Origin: Phycisphaerae bacterium
GTDB lineage: Bacteria; Planctomycetota; Phycisphaerae; Phycisphaerales; SM1A02
Length of the DNA: 64,000 bases
Assembly (NCBI GenBank): GCA_002705085.1
Contig: PAHO01000052.1
Span: 1 to 64,000, forward strand
Reading direction: 5' to 3'
Made by a program: the position numbers and the translations under genes. Below, piece by piece: positions 27,821 to 35,064 of this stretch. Below the pieces are notes generated by a model, which saw only the letters and a list, made by a program, of their open reading frames with translations, did no database searches and was not told the DNA's origin. Within the stretch, counting starts at the first letter, position 1. Each line of letters opens with the position of its first letter.

Positions 27821-27852
27821 AAAAAAAAAGGCCCCCGGTTTTGGGGGCCTTT
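27821..27852 (-). terminator. Rho-independent terminator after the dockerin gene
   Basis: AAAGGCCCCC, loop, GGGGGCCTTT: a perfect 10-bp stem (27827-27836 with 27843-27852). On the minus strand it is followed by nine T residues (27821-27829). It ends transcription of the dockerin gene before gltA. Confidence 0.92.
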
Positions 27853-27873: not shown

Positions 27874-29301
27874 TCAGCAATCGCCGAAGGCCGAGAGCAA
27901 CGCCAAAAGGTCGTTGAACTCCACCGTGCCGCTTCCGTCCAAATCGGCTTCGGGGTTGTTGGTCCCCCAGGCCGAAAGAAGGTTCAGAAGGTCTTCAAAA
28001 TCCACACTGCCATTGTTGTTGATGTCACCAATGCATTCCTCCGTGACGTCGGGGACATCGACGAGGGCAAAGCGATTTGGCTCGGAGGTTTCTTTGAAGA
28101 AGCCCAGCTCAACTTGACCGTTGACCGGGGGGTAAGGCGAGGTGAACCTAAAGTTGTAGGTTGTTCCCCAGCGGATGGCATTTGCGTTGGCGTTCGTATC
28201 GAACGATTCGGTGGCAAAAACCACACCGTCGGCACTGTTGGAAGCATCCCAAGGCGTTGGCTCGTACGGCTCGCCGGAGTGATACTCCGGACAAGCAAAG
28301 CCAAAAGACGTGGCCATGGGATCGCCATTGGTTGGGATGATCAGCTGGCCGATGGAAGCATCAATGTTTTGGTTGTACACCGCGTATTCGTAGTCCCACG
28401 TTCCATCTCCATTGTCGTAGGCTCGTGAGGCAACAATCATTTGTCCCATGCCCGGCACCCCAAGTCGGCGATATTTCACAGCGGGGTCGGCAACTTTCCA
28501 AGCTGACAGTGCGGGCAGAGCCACTTGGGTGTCGGTGGTGAACCCGACGATGTTGCCGCCATTGTTGAGATCCACTCCGCGATAGGACATGTTGTTGTCA
28601 CCATTCCCACCTTGGGTGGGGTTGTCGTCTGGGCAGACGTATTGCCCTTCAACAAAGAAAGTCGAACCTGAAGGGACGTTGGTCACCATGCTCTGAGGCA
28701 CCCGGAGCCGTCGAGCCGTGGATCCGCTGTACACCGGATTCGCCGGGGGATAGGGGTAAACACCAGTGGTGGCGTTCACTTCGTACTTGGGACCCAGGGT
28801 GCTTTGGGATCCATTGCGGCTTGCGGTGTAAGGATCGGAGCAGTTGACCCCGAGGGTTGAACATGAGGTGGCTTGGCATGGCCCACATTCACTCTGGCTC
28901 AGAGCGCAGAAGCCATGCTTCAGCCATGACTGTCCGATCATTTCCATGCGCGGGTGACCATTCGGCCCGGGCGCTAAGCGGTACATCGACTGACCAATGA
29001 CCGGATGTTGGTTGTTGTTGGAAATCCAAAGCAGCGGTTCATCGCCAACATTGCAACTCACGGTCCCAATGCTGTACGCGTCGTACCCACCAGAAGCGCT
29101 GTAGTTGGTGTAACTCTGTAAGTTCCAAACCACCACATCGGGACCAACCGCGCCAAGTGGTTCTGCGTTGAGGGCAGCGCTGTTGGCGGCCGAGGGCGTG
29201 GACGACTGGCCCAACTCCACGTCAGATGCGTTGGTCATGGAGCCGATCAGGATCAAACCAGCCGAGAGGGCTGAGACGCTAAGGATGAAAGTGTTTCGCA
29301 T
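27874..29301 (-). CDS. Secreted protein with C-terminal dockerin repeats
   Basis: A 475-residue exported protein of unknown role. The signal peptide is MRNTFILSVSALSAGLILIG, with cleavage probably near MTNAS. The body has many Asn, Gly, Tyr and Pro residues. A cysteine cluster (CALSQSECGPCQATSCSTLGVNC) may form disulfides. The beta-rich part contains WDYEYAVYNQNIDASIGQLIIP. Two dockerin-type EF-hands end the chain: DINNNGSVDFEDLLNLLSAWG and DLDGSGTVEFNDLLALLSAFG. GGGGAA upstream supports the ATG at 29301; an earlier open frame is not used. It ends at a strong terminator and is likely an abundant or independently expressed surface protein. Confidence 0.82.
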   Translation of the reverse strand: MRNTFILSVSALSAGLILIGSMTNASDVELGQSSTPSAANSAALNAEPLGAVGPDVVVWNLQSYTNYSASGGYDAYSIGTVSCNVGDEPLLWISNNNQHPVIGQSMYRLAPGPNGHPRMEMIGQSWLKHGFCALSQSECGPCQATSCSTLGVNCSDPYTASRNGSQSTLGPKYEVNATTGVYPYPPANPVYSGSTARRLRVPQSMVTNVPSGSTFFVEGQYVCPDDNPTQGGNGDNNMSYRGVDLNNGGNIVGFTTDTQVALPALSAWKVADPAVKYRRLGVPGMGQMIVASRAYDNGDGTWDYEYAVYNQNIDASIGQLIIPTNGDPMATSFGFACPEYHSGEPYEPTPWDASNSADGVVFATESFDTNANANAIRWGTTYNFRFTSPYPPVNGQVELGFFKETSEPNRFALVDVPDVTEECIGDINNNGSVDFEDLLNLLSAWGTNNPEADLDGSGTVEFNDLLALLSAFGDC

Positions 29302-29420
29302 AAGAATTCCCCGATGAAGAATACGACGCATCGTTGTGCAGACGGATGACTTTTTACCGTTTTCCGAGGCTTTCTCGGACGGTGGTGTGGCTTGAGCCAT
29401 TCTCGGACGTCAGAGGATGC

Positions 29421-31145
29421 TCAATCGTTCAATTGGCTTAACAAAGGAATAGGCTCCAAAGCGCAATGCAGGCCGCCATCTCGTTCCAGGATGGCTCGAG
29501 CAGGACGACCGATGACTTCTCGGCCCAGTTCCTTGTACGACATGGCGGCTTCGGCTTCGGCGGGCTCACTTCCTGCTCCAAATTGAGGCCAGTAGACATG
29601 GCTGCTGGTCACCAACGCATTGGCAGGGCCCCACAGTCGTCCGATGGAGACAAAGCTTGGGATCCGTCGCACCTCGTAGCCCTTGGATTGCAGAGTTTGC
29701 ACCATGGCCTCTCGGCGTTCGGCCATCCGAACCAACGCGGCAAAAGCGGCTTGAATTTCGGGGCTCATGCGTTCTGATTCATTGGCCAGAAGTGCATCGG
29801 CCAGAAGCACGTCGCACGCATGTTGCAAACGAGCGCTCATGGGATTGGGGGGATTGCGGTCCATGATGCCTCGGTACTCGGTGATTTGTTCAGGATTCTC
29901 GGCGGGGGCCCCAAAAGCATTCTTCAACAACAGTTCTGCAGCCGCTTTGGGATCGGCCACAAACATCACTGGTCCTTCAGGCGATTGGACCACGGACAGT
30001 TCGACGTCCAGATGAAATCCGGAAGGGGTCAGGGCCGTCACCTGGTCCGCGCCAAATGTGCGTTGGAGCGCTTGAGCCGCTTCCTCTGCGCTCAGTCCGA
30101 GTCTTTGGTTGCGTGCTAGCGTCGTGCTGGAAACCAAAAGGTGCGACTGGCCATCGCGTTCCCGAAACAGCAAGATGTTTCCGCCTTGCCAAAGCAATCC
30201 CGTTGCGCGCGAGACGGCATGTCCAGCTCGGACATAGCTCTCGGCGGCGAATTCCGCGGGGGGCCACCATTCGGTTCCGGTGTCCCCTCTGGACGCCCAC
30301 CGCGGACGCAAGAGGTAATGCGTTTGACCGTCGGTGGCCAAGCGACCGTTGTCGCGGGCCCATTGGTCGGGTCGGCCTATGGTGCGCACTCCGGTGGTTC
30401 CAGAGATGGTTTGGTTTTCGGCGATCGCAATCGTTCCGGAGAATCGTGGCAACAGATCCGCTGCACTTCCATCGTTGCGTCCGTCGATCAGACGGAGATC
30501 CGGCAAGTGGGCCCGCCAACCTGAAGAGGGGTCACTGCCATCGTCATGACAGAATTGGAGATTGGTGGTTGGCCATTCGAGCCGGAGGTCTGAGGGGGCC
30601 AGTTTCGGGTTCGGCGTAGCGGCAAGAATTCTTTCAAAAACGGGGACCCCTTCGGGACCCGTGAGGAGGCTGGCCACGTCGACTGGGACGCCAAGGTCCA
30701 ACAATCGGTCGACATTGGTGGACTCTTTGCAATGCGTGAAAAGGGTGGACACAAGACCCTCGGTCGACAATTGGCGCACGACCAAAGCTTGCTCGGCTGT
30801 CCCTTCCGATGGAAGGTCATTCCCAAAGAAGTTCGCATGTGCGGGACGACCGGCGTCGGTCCAGGTACTTCTTGATGCCCGTTCTTGGGGGGGCCAGGGG
30901 TCACTTGATTCGCTGGTTTGCTCAGGCCCCAGTCCCCGTGATTGGCGCAAAGGATGTTGGGTCGATGTCCGCCAACTTTGCCCAATGATTCGATCGACGA
31001 GTGCGTCCAAGACATGATCTGGCCATGCCAAATCGTCAATGGTTCCTTGCCCGACGGGAAGCGCTTCGATCCTTGCTTTGACTTCCGCCTCGATGGGCCC
31101 CGGCGGAACGAACGACCAGCATACGGCGCAGGTCCAAAGAATCAA
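29421..31145 (-). CDS. Agmatine-deiminase-like (pentein superfamily) protein, possibly exported
   Basis: A 574-residue protein that keeps the catalytic landmarks of agmatine/peptidyl-arginine deiminases in order. These are WARDNG (262-267, the substrate-binding WxRDxG), WQGGN (319-323, the EGGN loop with Gln for Glu), FHLDVE (His378, Asp380) and GGLHCALEP (Cys561, fourteen residues from the end). These enzymes hydrolyse guanidino groups. About 250 N-terminal residues have no match I recognise. TTG at 31145 is chosen as start: GAGGAG lies seven bases upstream and TTGA overlaps the antiporter stop. The first residues, ILWTCAVCWSFV, could be a signal or anchor segment. A catalytically altered relative is possible. 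Confidence 0.75.
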   Translation of the reverse strand: MILWTCAVCWSFVPPGPIEAEVKARIEALPVGQGTIDDLAWPDHVLDALVDRIIGQSWRTSTQHPLRQSRGLGPEQTSESSDPWPPQERASRSTWTDAGRPAHANFFGNDLPSEGTAEQALVVRQLSTEGLVSTLFTHCKESTNVDRLLDLGVPVDVASLLTGPEGVPVFERILAATPNPKLAPSDLRLEWPTTNLQFCHDDGSDPSSGWRAHLPDLRLIDGRNDGSAADLLPRFSGTIAIAENQTISGTTGVRTIGRPDQWARDNGRLATDGQTHYLLRPRWASRGDTGTEWWPPAEFAAESYVRAGHAVSRATGLLWQGGNILLFRERDGQSHLLVSSTTLARNQRLGLSAEEAAQALQRTFGADQVTALTPSGFHLDVELSVVQSPEGPVMFVADPKAAAELLLKNAFGAPAENPEQITEYRGIMDRNPPNPMSARLQHACDVLLADALLANESERMSPEIQAAFAALVRMAERREAMVQTLQSKGYEVRRIPSFVSIGRLWGPANALVTSSHVYWPQFGAGSEPAEAEAAMSYKELGREVIGRPARAILERDGGLHCALEPIPLLSQLND

Positions 31146-33310
31146 GCGTGGGCTCCTCGGATCACTTTCAACGCTTCGATTCCCGATTGAGAGTCCATCA
31201 GCGCACGGCGAATGGATGGGTCCAAACAAGTTCGGCCGATTTCAGCCAGTGTGGCCAGATGAGATTCGGGATCCCCGGTGGGGGAGATCAGCAAGAACAC
31301 CAAGCGCACTTGATGTGGCCCGTAGCGTGTGCCTTCAGGCGCAAGGCCAAGAACACAAACCCGTTCATCAAGCCCGCGGGCATGCGTATGCGGGATGCAA
31401 ACACCATCACCCACGAACGTGGGGTTCAGTTGCTCGCGAGACAGCAAGTCGGCCAAGATTTGATCGCGATCGATGTCCGGTCGGGCACGAACCAATCGGT
31501 CCATCAGTTCGTTCAAGATGCCATCGATCCCATCGGAGTGCAGGGGGCCGAATCCTTCCGGCAGAAAGGCTTGCCGGAAATAATCAGCTTCGCGGATCAA
31601 ATGCAGACCAAGCGGTGAGGGGCCTTCAGGTGGAGCAAGGTCCATCACATCGTCATTGATCGAAGCCAAGCGATACACCCCGGATCCGTGCTCGTCAGGA
31701 TCCACCACGAATTTTGCATCGCCGCGTTCCATTTCGGCGGAAATGAGTCCTGGTCTCGGCAAACCTTGAGCAAAGCGGCTCCCGCTGTCGGCTTCTTCTC
31801 CGCCCCAACGCCAGACATTCGTGTCGCCAAGCATGTCGGCCCAAATGTCGCAGAGGCGAACGTTCAGATCTTCGTTGTCGGTGAGCGCCAAAAGATTTCC
31901 GAAGCGGGCAAAATCAGCACGTTCAGCCAATTCGGGGCGCCGGGCATCTTGCTCGATCGCCTTCAAACCTTCGGCTCTCGCTTCTCGAATGGCCCGTTTG
32001 TTTTGGTCGATCAACAAGACGGGCACGTTGGCTTGGTTGGTGGCGAAGTGCGCGATGCGTCGTCCCAAGCTGTGCGCGCCAACGATGATCCAACCTTTGG
32101 GGTGCTTGCGCCGGAGACCAAGCAGGCCGGCCAAGGGCCCCGCGGTGGTCGCTTGCAGCAAGATCGTGGCCAAGATCACCGACCATGTGAACGTCTCAAC
32201 AAAGCCGACATCATCAGGATTGGCTCTTTCTAGGGCCAAGGCAAACAGCGACGCCATGGAAGCAGCAACAATGCCGCGTGGAGCGACCCAAGCCAAGAAC
32301 GTCCGCTCGTTCCATCCCAGTTCGCTGCCCCACGTGCACAGCACAATGGACAGTGGTCGGGCGACGAACATCATGGCCAGGACCGCGAGCAAGCCGCTCA
32401 TGCCAAACGATTCGAAGCGTTCGAAGTCCAAACGGCCGGCAAGCAGAATGAACAGAGCTCCAATCAACAGGAACACGATTTCTTCTTTGAACGCTCGAAG
32501 GTGACGGAGCCTTTCGGGGCGTTGGAAGCCGAGGGTGTAGCCCGCCACGGTTGCCGCCAGAACTCCCGCTTCGCTGCGAATCGATTCGGCCACCGTGAAT
32601 ACGCCCACCGCCACAGAGAGCGTGAAGACGTTGGTGAGGTCGGCGGGCACAAGGTCTCGGCGGTGCAGCCACAGCAGGAAGCGACCACCAATGATGCCAA
32701 TGATGGAGCCACCCAAGACGCGAACTACCAAATCAATGATCGGGGTTGCGGATTCCTCCGGAACCGCGATTTGGAAGCACAACAAGGCCACAAAAACACC
32801 AATTGGGTCGATCACCACTCCTTCCCAATGCAAGATGCCGTGCAACCTTTCGTTGAGCCTGACTCTTTTCAGCAAAGGTCCAATGACGGTCGGCCCGGTG
32901 ACGACGACCAGGGAGGCGCCGAGGAGCGCTTCCTGCCAAGGTCGATTTGCAAGAAAGACCAAAGCCAATGTGCCCACCAGAAGCGTGACAAAGACGCCAA
33001 GCGTCAACAATCTGGTGATGACCACGGGGGCTTCACGAAGGACGCCGCGATCGAGGGTCAAACCCCCTTCGAACAGAATGAGACCCACCGCAAGTGCCAC
33101 GAGGACTTCAAGACCACGTCCCAAGTTGGCCGGGTCCACCAGTGCGGCATCTCCCAAGACCCCGGGGCCCATCAGTACTCCGGCCGCAGTCAACAGCAAG
33201 ATGGGAGGCAGCCCAATGCGGCGGGCGATGGTGACCAATGGGATCCCCGCCGCGAAGGCCAAGCCAACGCTGAGCAGCATGTCGTGAACGTGGGAATCCG
33301 GTTGAGCCAC
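31142..33310 (-). CDS. CPA-type cation:proton antiporter fused to RCK and PTS EIIA-like domains
   Basis: A 722-residue fusion. Residues about 10-400 are a multi-helix Na+/H+ exchanger domain (VALAVGLILFEGGLTLDRG, HWEGVVIDPIGVFVALL, AWVAPRGIVAASMASL). About 405-525 is an RCK/TrkA-N Rossmann domain (GWIIVGAHSLGRRIAHFA...VLLIDQNK), whose glycine motif is GAHSLG rather than GxGxxG. About 590-715 resembles PTS EIIA type 2, with GVCIPHTHA supplying a possible phospho-His at 641. The protein would expel Na+ or K+ in the inner membrane under nucleotide and possibly phosphorylation control. The GTG start has TAGACT (33317-33322) six bases upstream. It is coupled to the pentein gene through TTGA. Confidence 0.88.
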   Translation of the reverse strand: MAQPDSHVHDMLLSVGLAFAAGIPLVTIARRIGLPPILLLTAAGVLMGPGVLGDAALVDPANLGRGLEVLVALAVGLILFEGGLTLDRGVLREAPVVITRLLTLGVFVTLLVGTLALVFLANRPWQEALLGASLVVVTGPTVIGPLLKRVRLNERLHGILHWEGVVIDPIGVFVALLCFQIAVPEESATPIIDLVVRVLGGSIIGIIGGRFLLWLHRRDLVPADLTNVFTLSVAVGVFTVAESIRSEAGVLAATVAGYTLGFQRPERLRHLRAFKEEIVFLLIGALFILLAGRLDFERFESFGMSGLLAVLAMMFVARPLSIVLCTWGSELGWNERTFLAWVAPRGIVAASMASLFALALERANPDDVGFVETFTWSVILATILLQATTAGPLAGLLGLRRKHPKGWIIVGAHSLGRRIAHFATNQANVPVLLIDQNKRAIREARAEGLKAIEQDARRPELAERADFARFGNLLALTDNEDLNVRLCDIWADMLGDTNVWRWGGEEADSGSRFAQGLPRPGLISAEMERGDAKFVVDPDEHGSGVYRLASINDDVMDLAPPEGPSPLGLHLIREADYFRQAFLPEGFGPLHSDGIDGILNELMDRLVRARPDIDRDQILADLLSREQLNPTFVGDGVCIPHTHARGLDERVCVLGLAPEGTRYGPHQVRLVFLLISPTGDPESHLATLAEIGRTCLDPSIRRALMDSQSGIEALKVIRGAHA

Positions 33311-33316
33311 CCCGAG

Positions 33317-33339
33317 AGTCTACGCGTCCGACCTATGAT
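33317..33339. promoter_or_regulatory. Divergent -10 boxes between antiporter and asparaginase genes
   Basis: TAGACT on the minus strand (33317-33322) lies six bases before the antiporter GTG. TATGAT on the plus strand (33334-33339) lies seven bases before the ATG at 33347. The intergenic gap is so short that both transcripts would be leaderless. Confidence 0.4.
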
Positions 33340-33346
33340 TCTGGCA

Positions 33347-34273
33347 ATGTCACTCTTGCTGAGCACCTGGTCTTTTTCTCGCCCGGAACATGAGTCAGCT
33401 TTTGCGCGGTTGGGGCCTGGCGCCGACCCACTGGATGCCGCCATGCATGTGGCTGAGGCCGTTGAGGCTGATCCGGAGGTGGATTCAGTGGGGTATGGAG
33501 GCCTTCCGGATGCCAGCGGCGGTGTTTCGCTTGATGCATTGGTCATGCGATCGCCGGCGGAACATGGCAGTGCCATTGCCCTGACCCAGGTTCGGCGGGC
33601 GGCAGCGGCCGCTCGGTTGGTGATGGAAAAGAGTCCCCACCGCATCTTGGCGGGACCTGGAGCGGACACCTTCGCCATGCAACATGGCCTACCAGCCGAA
33701 GAAATGTTGGCCCCGGCGGCACGTGAGCGATGGGAGGCTTGGCGCAACGATCCCAATCAAGACCCTGGACAACGCCCTTGGGATTCTGGATTGGGACGTT
33801 TGTATCGCAACGAAGGAGGGCACGACACCGTTTGTGTGCTGGCGCAGAACGATCAGGGCCTCGCCGGAGTGTGCACCACCAGTGGGATGCCTTGGAAGGC
33901 ACCGGGTCGCGTTGGTGATTCTCCAATTCCCGGGGCAGGTTTGTACGTGCATCCTCGATATGGGGCGGCAACAATTACGGGGACGGGGGAGTTGGTCATC
34001 GGAAATTGTGCTTCGTTCTCGGTTGTGGAGTCCATGCGGCAAGGGGCTGAGCCTTCGCGGGCCATTGCCCATTTGTTGGAACTGGTGCTCGCAGAACAAC
34101 CGGTCAAGCCGGAAGATCAACTTGGGGTGATCGCCATTTCACCCGACGGTCATTGGGCGGCGGGGTCCCTTCGTCCGGGGTTCAAGTACGTCGTGACCGA
34201 TGAGCAAGGCACACGAGTGGATTCACCGGAATTGGTGATTGTGGATGAGCCGATTCCCGAGACGGCGTCCTGA
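33347..34273 (+). CDS. Asparaginase, family T2 (N-terminal nucleophile hydrolase)
   Basis: An Ntn hydrolase of 308 residues like glycosylasparaginase and isoaspartyl peptidase. GGHDTVCVLAQNDQGLAGVCTTSG marks the autocleavage site; Thr161 after HD becomes the N-terminal nucleophile. APGRVGDSPIPGAGLYV is the substrate-binding motif. The N-terminal segment (SLLLSTWSF) may be a weak signal peptide. The ATG at 33347 is preferred over 33335 because TATGAT ends seven bases before it. The gene overlaps the next start (TGATG). The substrate could be N-glycosyl-asparagine or an isoaspartyl peptide; I cannot distinguish them. Confidence 0.88.
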   Translation: MSLLLSTWSFSRPEHESAFARLGPGADPLDAAMHVAEAVEADPEVDSVGYGGLPDASGGVSLDALVMRSPAEHGSAIALTQVRRAAAAARLVMEKSPHRILAGPGADTFAMQHGLPAEEMLAPAARERWEAWRNDPNQDPGQRPWDSGLGRLYRNEGGHDTVCVLAQNDQGLAGVCTTSGMPWKAPGRVGDSPIPGAGLYVHPRYGAATITGTGELVIGNCASFSVVESMRQGAEPSRAIAHLLELVLAEQPVKPEDQLGVIAISPDGHWAAGSLRPGFKYVVTDEQGTRVDSPELVIVDEPIPETAS

Positions 34274-35064
34274 TGTTGTGCGCAGCTTTGGTGTTGGGCC
34301 TTTCGGCCAGTGTTGCCGACGAGTCCATGCCTTCGAGCATCACCGAGGTGTGCCAGGTGGAGACTTTCGTTGTGGCGGGTGCGCCAGCGGTGGGTCGGAT
34401 GACCGATCGAGATTTGACTTTGGTGGTTGAGCTGAAGCTCGAAAAAGATTGGCACACGTACTGGTGGGATGCGGGTTCATGGGGCGCTCCGCCAAGGCTC
34501 ACAATCAACGCGCCGAAGGGTTGGCAGACCGGCCCCATCATTTTGCCTGCGCCAGAGTGTTTTTCGACCGACCTTGGAGAGGTATACGGCTACCACCACT
34601 CGGTCCGATTTCAAGTCCCGATGCGTCGACCAGACGCCTCACCCGCCGAATTGACGTATGCGTTGGATTGGCTGGTGTGCAAAGAAGCATGTTTATTGGG
34701 GAGGGCATCCAAAACGTTGAACGTGCCAGCAATCTTGCCGAACAGCGGCTTCCCTGATCTGAGCCAAGACGCGGTCTATTTGGCTCCGGAGCGCCGTTTG
34801 CGCTCGCAATTGGTCGGGGATGCCCTGTGGGTGGAGCACCCTGAAAGTTGTTTGGGCCAGCCAAAACTCGTCTTTCGGCCACTTGATGCGGTTTCTTTGC
34901 CCCAAGCTGGCCCCACCAAGCAAAATGATGGGTGGGTTTTCCCCCTCGATATTCGTCGTCAAGATTTTCCTTCGGCAGGCACAGTCACTCTGCACGGTTT
35001 GCTCATTTTTTCGGATAACGGCGCCCGTGAGACTTATGCTTTTTCAACCACGTTGAACAATTAA
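34273..35064 (+). CDS. DsbD N-terminal-domain-like secreted protein
   Basis: A 263-residue exported protein resembling the periplasmic N-terminal domain of thiol:disulfide interchange protein DsbD. It has KLEKDWHTYWWDAGSWGAPPRLTINAPKGW, YGYHHSVRFQVPM and LDWLVCKEACLLG, where two cysteines sit in CKEAC. Full DsbD continues with a membrane domain and thioredoxin; this protein stops without them. The signal peptide MLCAALVLGLSASVADES starts at the ATG overlapping the asparaginase stop. The redoxin gene follows by 25 bases, and the resB-ccsA system is a few genes on, so a role in periplasmic thiol redox is plausible. Confidence 0.78.
   Translation: MLCAALVLGLSASVADESMPSSITEVCQVETFVVAGAPAVGRMTDRDLTLVVELKLEKDWHTYWWDAGSWGAPPRLTINAPKGWQTGPIILPAPECFSTDLGEVYGYHHSVRFQVPMRRPDASPAELTYALDWLVCKEACLLGRASKTLNVPAILPNSGFPDLSQDAVYLAPERRLRSQLVGDALWVEHPESCLGQPKLVFRPLDAVSLPQAGPTKQNDGWVFPLDIRRQDFPSAGTVTLHGLLIFSDNGARETYAFSTTLNN

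Follow-up and report, generated by a model that had tools for sequence, protein, structure and literature searches.

An arginine in secreted dockerin-tailed proteins of planctomycetes covaries with a pentein deiminase predicted to modify it

To our knowledge, hardly any bacterial protein citrullination has been described outside one oral bacterium. The enzyme of P. gingivalis has been studied mostly for its action on host peptides, and a literature search for work on citrullination or peptidylarginine deiminases in planctomycetes yielded no paper. In a paper from 2015, P. gingivalis is described as the sole prokaryote in which expression of a peptidylarginine deiminase (PAD) is known (PMC4585897). 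The catalytic set of this enzyme, PPAD, consists of Asp130, His236, Asp238, Asn297 and Cys351, and an Ig-like domain follows the catalytic one; PPAD, the closest characterised protein deiminase, prefers a C-terminal arginine, the carboxylate of which is bound by an arginine of an NRP motif (Arg152/Arg154) (PMC4893104).

The window analyzed here is a stretch of 64,000 nucleotides from a Phycisphaerae bacterium (contig PAHO01000052.1, assembly GCA_002705085.1), and the features discussed below are listed in Table 1. The reading frame of the deiminase-like gene is open from a TTG codon that lies behind GAGGAG, as stated in a preliminary description of this DNA. This TTG overlaps the TGA of a cation antiporter gene by 4 nt; the TTG, the overlap and the purine-rich site are kept in 3 of 3 genus-mates examined. 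The proteins are 71-80% identical within the genus with dN/dS of about 0.09-0.15, and the gene is therefore under purifying selection; a decayed pseudogene is rejected at dN/dS of about 0.1. This is a real conserved gene.

Table 1. Features of the deiminase-dock locus (window coordinates)
Feature	Position	Strand	Remarks
Cation/proton antiporter-TrkA_N-EIIA gene	31142..33310	-	overlaps the deiminase start; adjacency limited to the window genus
Pentein (PAD_porph-type) deiminase-like gene	29421..31145	-	574 aa, TTG start
N-terminal module, about residues 15-68	30942..31103	-	family-only; part of the deiminase here; elsewhere encoded just upstream as a small membrane protein of its own
Predicted pentein catalytic domain, residues 192-573	29427..30572	-	Foldseek and structural alignment of the model
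W262-x-x-D265	30351..30362	-	W202/D205 in the PPAD-type yardstick by alignment
H378-x-D380	30006..30014	-	aligned with yardstick H311/D313; PPAD His236/Asp238
Helical stretch, residues 399-487, between HxD and Asn509	29685..29951	-	family-specific insertion
N509, PPAD Asn297 equivalent	29619..29621	-	invariant
C561, putative nucleophile, PPAD Cys351 equivalent	29463..29465	-	invariant
'Dock', secreted beta-rich protein, conserved partner, proposed substrate	27874..29400	-	signal-peptide-bearing start probably 29301
Codon CGC of dock Arg195, the proposed target	28816..28818	-	Arg confined to genomes with the deiminase
GC-type dockerin domain of dock, residues 456-505	27886..28035	-	NF041540
Intrinsic-terminator-like hairpin, 10 pairs and T run	27827..27852	-	just after dock, before gltA

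A Pfam search with the encoded protein identifies PAD_porph (PF04371) with 46.4 bits, against a gathering cut-off of 25, and no other family; of 34 relatives, 17 are matched at E <= 0.001, likewise by PAD_porph alone, and neither the window protein nor any of the 34 matches an NCBIfam family. Searches of PDB sequences started with the protein or with the family profile give no match, the placement being by structure search alone. The AlphaFold2 model, built on the 34 family sequences (identity with the window protein 22-30% outside the window genus), has pLDDT of 77 and pTM of 0.85. A pentein fold, for which the preliminary description had proposed a structural check, is recovered in this predicted model across residues 192-573: the first 42 Foldseek matches in the PDB are all agmatine deiminases, PPAD, PADs or a DDAH, and VIA-align superimposes the model on agmatine deiminase 6b10 with Z of 22.1, the highest value (288 residues, 3.0 A), on PPAD with Z of 20.3 and on PAD4 with Z of 18.9. 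The first blade is modeled with low confidence, and the window genus forms a long branch in which this blade is shortened. The domain begins near residue 192, so that the N-terminal extension comprises about 190 residues, not the approximately 250 first suggested.

W262, D265, Q320-G321-G322, H378, D380, N509 and C561 are invariant across the 34 relatives; all except N509 had been named beforehand at these same positions, including the Gln that replaces Glu in the EGG motif. In a profile comparison, W262, D265, H378, D380, N509 and C561 align with their counterparts in classical PPAD-type proteins of the same class. In the model, W262-D265, Q320-G322, H378-D380 and C561 sit at short helices directly before inner strands, an arrangement that has been described for the pentein active-site channel (PMC6447857). 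Together, the fold matches and the family-wide invariance of the catalytic residues support the earlier prediction of a guanidino-modifying enzyme of the pentein fold.

Comparison with the described families places the protein, as judged from its sequence and predicted fold, in the PAD_porph/agmatine deiminase branch, where it is neither AguA nor PPAD. With AguA and other PAD_porph proteins it shares the pentein fold, the order of the catalytic Asp, His, Asp, Asn and Cys and the above-threshold Pfam match; unlike them, it belongs to a family in which Gln always takes the place of the Glu of EGG and mostly, though not in the window genus, that of the Arg of WxRDxG, and in which the pentein domain is preceded by the N-terminal region and interrupted by a helical insertion, the spacing from HxD to Asn being 131 residues in the window protein, as against 61 in the classical relative L022. 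The NCBIfam equivalog for AguA (TIGR03380) is not matched, and a full agmatine route was not found in the window genome (about 90% complete), in which SpeA has no match and AguB homologs score well below the cut-off; on these grounds an agmatine role is unlikely, and agmatine catabolism was set aside. PPAD is likewise bacterial and predicted to be exported, and all five of its catalytic residues have aligned equivalents, but the window protein ends at residue 574, 13 residues after Cys561, with no domain after the catalytic one; it also belongs to another clade with other neighbors and its own N-terminal module, and the proposed target is an internal residue of a dedicated partner. The animal and cyanobacterial PADI proteins share the pentein catalytic domain and, by the present proposal, a protein substrate; in contrast to these, the window protein matches PF04371 only, with no match to a PADI model, PAD_N or PAD_M. 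The window enzyme would work like a protein-arginine deiminase.

The same class also contains secreted deiminases of the classical PPAD type (L022:6966-8756, L050-L052, L081, L082) with WxRDxG, NRPRP-like, HxDMW and GxxHC motifs and Ig-like and/or dockerin-like tails. These proteins resemble PPAD, an enzyme for which uniqueness to P. gingivalis has been claimed. Those of L022 and L050-L052 are dockerin-tailed and share with the window family the superfamily, the bacterial class and the exported type; they differ from it in keeping the WxRDYG-type, NRPRP and HGGGN motifs, in carrying the dockerin on the enzyme itself and in having no N-terminal module.

The possible signal peptide of the preliminary description is only partly upheld: residues 2-13 form a short hydrophobic stretch, but it has no basic residues and is plausible only beside the relatives, most of which have a clear hydrophobic leader or anchor where that of the window protein is weak. 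By this comparison, the window deiminase would be exported as well. The N-terminal module occurs only with this deiminase family, fused or separate. Among 298 genomes it was found 25 times, 24 of them within or directly upstream of a family deiminase gene, and the remaining copy (G300) sits at the edge of a contig, which also truncates the deiminase gene of this genome. In many genomes the module is a separate protein whose hydrophobic N-terminus is joined by a linker to a second, C-terminal hydrophobic stretch, followed by a basic tail. The deiminase family is present outside the class Phycisphaerae as well. In two genomes a deiminase is fused to a polyferredoxin-plus-TPR membrane protein, which in a third is encoded directly upstream (L018:4361-8443, L092:2632-6447, L070:6973-8901). 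A separate paralogous clade (L065, L071, L074, L076) has its own shared neighbors and no dock nearby; the four genomes involved also carry another member of the family.

The preliminary description missed the gene downstream of the deiminase, here denoted dock, which is the conserved partner. Its product consists of a hydrophobic N-terminus, a beta-rich body and a GC-type dockerin tail (NF041540, 31.4 bits against a cut-off of 29). A dock homolog lies within 1.2 kb of 28 of 44 deiminases, on the same strand in 27 of the 28 and with a gap of 0-757 nt, and the other 16 have no dock next door; since a genome contains only 2-8 docks (12 genomes), adjacency by chance is expected at well under 1%. 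All-against-all clustering of nearby open reading frames reveals no other equally widespread family, overlapping and antisense frames of the two genes themselves aside. Docks are present in 27 of 27 enzyme-positive genomes, compared with 125 of 397 overall. The body has no convincing structural relative in the PDB (best Z of 5.3), the dock set shares no Pfam family beyond the dockerin/EF-hand tail, and the PDB sequence matches of the dock profile are dockerins or EF-hand proteins. Secreted dockerin-bearing planctomycete proteins with no role in cellulose use also feature in the hypothesized 'planctosome', cohesin/dockerin assemblies of freshwater planctomycetes; these are, however, proposed to be a peptidase complex, and the passages that describe them mention no deiminase (PMC6461901).

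If dock is the substrate of the deiminase, its target arginine should follow the presence of the enzyme. On this rationale, docks adjacent to a deiminase were compared with docks from genomes of the class that have no deiminase. All 30 adjacent docks, with six from outside the discovery set among them, have Arg as residue 195 (CSDPYTAS-R-NG), and none of the 60 docks from enzyme-negative genomes does (59 have Leu and one has Gln). Column 195 is alone in separating the two sets, with a total-variation score of 1.00 as against 0.72 for the next best column. The negatives are mostly the copies that score best in their genome against the Arg-type dock profile, and their selection is therefore biased against this result. 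After this comparison, the first guess that dock is merely a general neighbor was dropped.

The association extends beyond adjacent genes. With a deiminase match at E < 1e-100 as the definition, 27 of 397 genomes are enzyme-positive and 370 negative, a status that rests on draft genomes. A DNA pattern for CxDPYxxxRNG, scanned across all 397 whole genomes, matches 25, of which 24 are enzyme-positive, and the Arg-type docks often lie far from the deiminase gene; the 25th match (G219, enzyme-negative) is not a dock. When an Arg-Asn-Ala variant (G112 and G327), sought among the fetched docks only, is included, an Arg-type dock is present in 26 of 27 positive and 0 of 370 negative genomes (Fisher test, 7e-40 ignoring phylogeny and 5e-26 among dock-bearing genomes only), and the same association recurs under the family labels f1, f2, f8, f19 and f22. 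Among docks of the positive genomes that lie far from the enzyme, both kinds occur, and 57 of all 90 docks in these genomes are Arg-type. For three positive genomes with no known Arg-type dock one was predicted: G127 and G327 had one, and none is among the docks found in G220. An alignment row from G220 (L251.2) that appeared to be an Arg-dock was judged a wrong-frame piece, given that another frame of this locus yields the full motif with Leu, and was excluded from the counts. The deiminase of G220 (L077) has no detected N-terminal module or dock neighbor and may have another substrate or be losing its function. Related genomes do not count as independent cases: the dock tree requires 13-14 changes of the Arg state, with Arg-type docks clustering; phylogenetically independent contrasts all point in the expected direction, at most 5:0, and are not significant alone. 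Arg195 and the enzyme covary between genomes.

These observations are best compatible with the window gene encoding an exported, membrane-tethered protein-arginine deiminase dedicated to a single arginine, Arg195, of the co-encoded secreted dockerin-tailed docks, a reading that we consider probable. After export, the enzyme would be held at the membrane via its N-terminal module; Asp265 and Asp380 would hold the guanidinium of Arg195, Cys561 would attack, and His378 would serve as the acid/base. Ammonia would leave and Arg195 would become citrulline by the Cys/His/Asp/Asp mechanism known for the pentein fold, with the positive side chain turned neutral. Lineages that lack the enzyme have Leu at this position, which suggests a need for an uncharged mature residue, and citrulline would be uncharged. 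Modification of Arg195, with citrulline as the product, and any benefit that the cell would draw from it are predictions from comparative sequence analysis. Against this reading, Arg195 is an internal residue unless dock is cut there, as opposed to the C-terminal arginine preferred by PPAD.

Covariation as such speaks for interaction or dependence and not for chemistry, so Arg195 could instead sit in the pentein pocket merely to dock, inhibit or anchor the enzyme, all the more as dockerin-tailed docks may be scaffolds. The catalytic residues, including Cys561, His378 and Asn509, are nevertheless invariant in the 34 relatives, beyond what binding would need, and binding with no modification appears unlikely. 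A still less probable scenario is that an exported pentein frees ammonia from free arginine, agmatine or a peptide C-terminal arginine, with dock a mere neighbor and Arg or Leu marking dock subfamilies of different history. The nearest folds are indeed agmatine deiminases and PPAD, and the Arg-type docks do cluster on the tree. Furthermore, Arg282 is invariant in the family and aligns with the first arginine of the NRP(R) motif of PPAD-type proteins, the register being uncertain by two residues, so that it may or may not match the arginine that binds carboxylate in PPAD. Such a scenario leaves unexplained why Arg-type docks, many of which lie far from the enzyme gene, are absent from the 370 enzyme-negative genomes, and the results for SpeA and AguB also count against it.

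The preliminary description had linked the deiminase to the antiporter and to pH or ion homeostasis, and the overlap of 4 nt is present in 4 of 4 genomes of the genus. This adjacency, however, is limited to the window genus: at other deiminase loci the antiporter is absent nearby or more than 6 kb away (L061), and G022, from a sister genus, retains an asparaginase-dock-deiminase-dock-gltA block that has no antiporter. Because of this restriction, the antiporter is not part of the conserved system, and a joint role of the two genes in pH or cation homeostasis is highly improbable. Within the window, the genes from the antiporter through dock may form one transcription unit, and the hairpin after dock is consistent with this. 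On the opposite strand, the Asparaginase_2 gene (33335-34270, +) evolves much faster than its neighbors (40-64% identity within the genus) and has its homolog in G022 beside the dock-deiminase block; the adjoining gene (34273-35064, +) encodes a DsbD N-terminal domain protein, a hint that disulfides may be handled close to dock, which is exported and bears Cys.

Taken more broadly, the comparison leads us to favor, with some reservation, the view that free-living bacteria here possess an endogenous system dedicated to protein citrullination, in which a pentein, exported and obligately combined with a membrane-anchored module, would modify one fixed arginine in the cell's own family of secreted dockerin-tailed proteins, the enzyme and the target residue being gained and lost together. 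The family, in Phycisphaerae and related planctomycetes, seems to modify its bearers' own secreted proteins at one site, and the probable substrate residue is named by genome comparison alone. The system lends itself to direct testing, since a single enzyme and a single residue are involved and nature provides both a Leu control and an enzyme-negative background.
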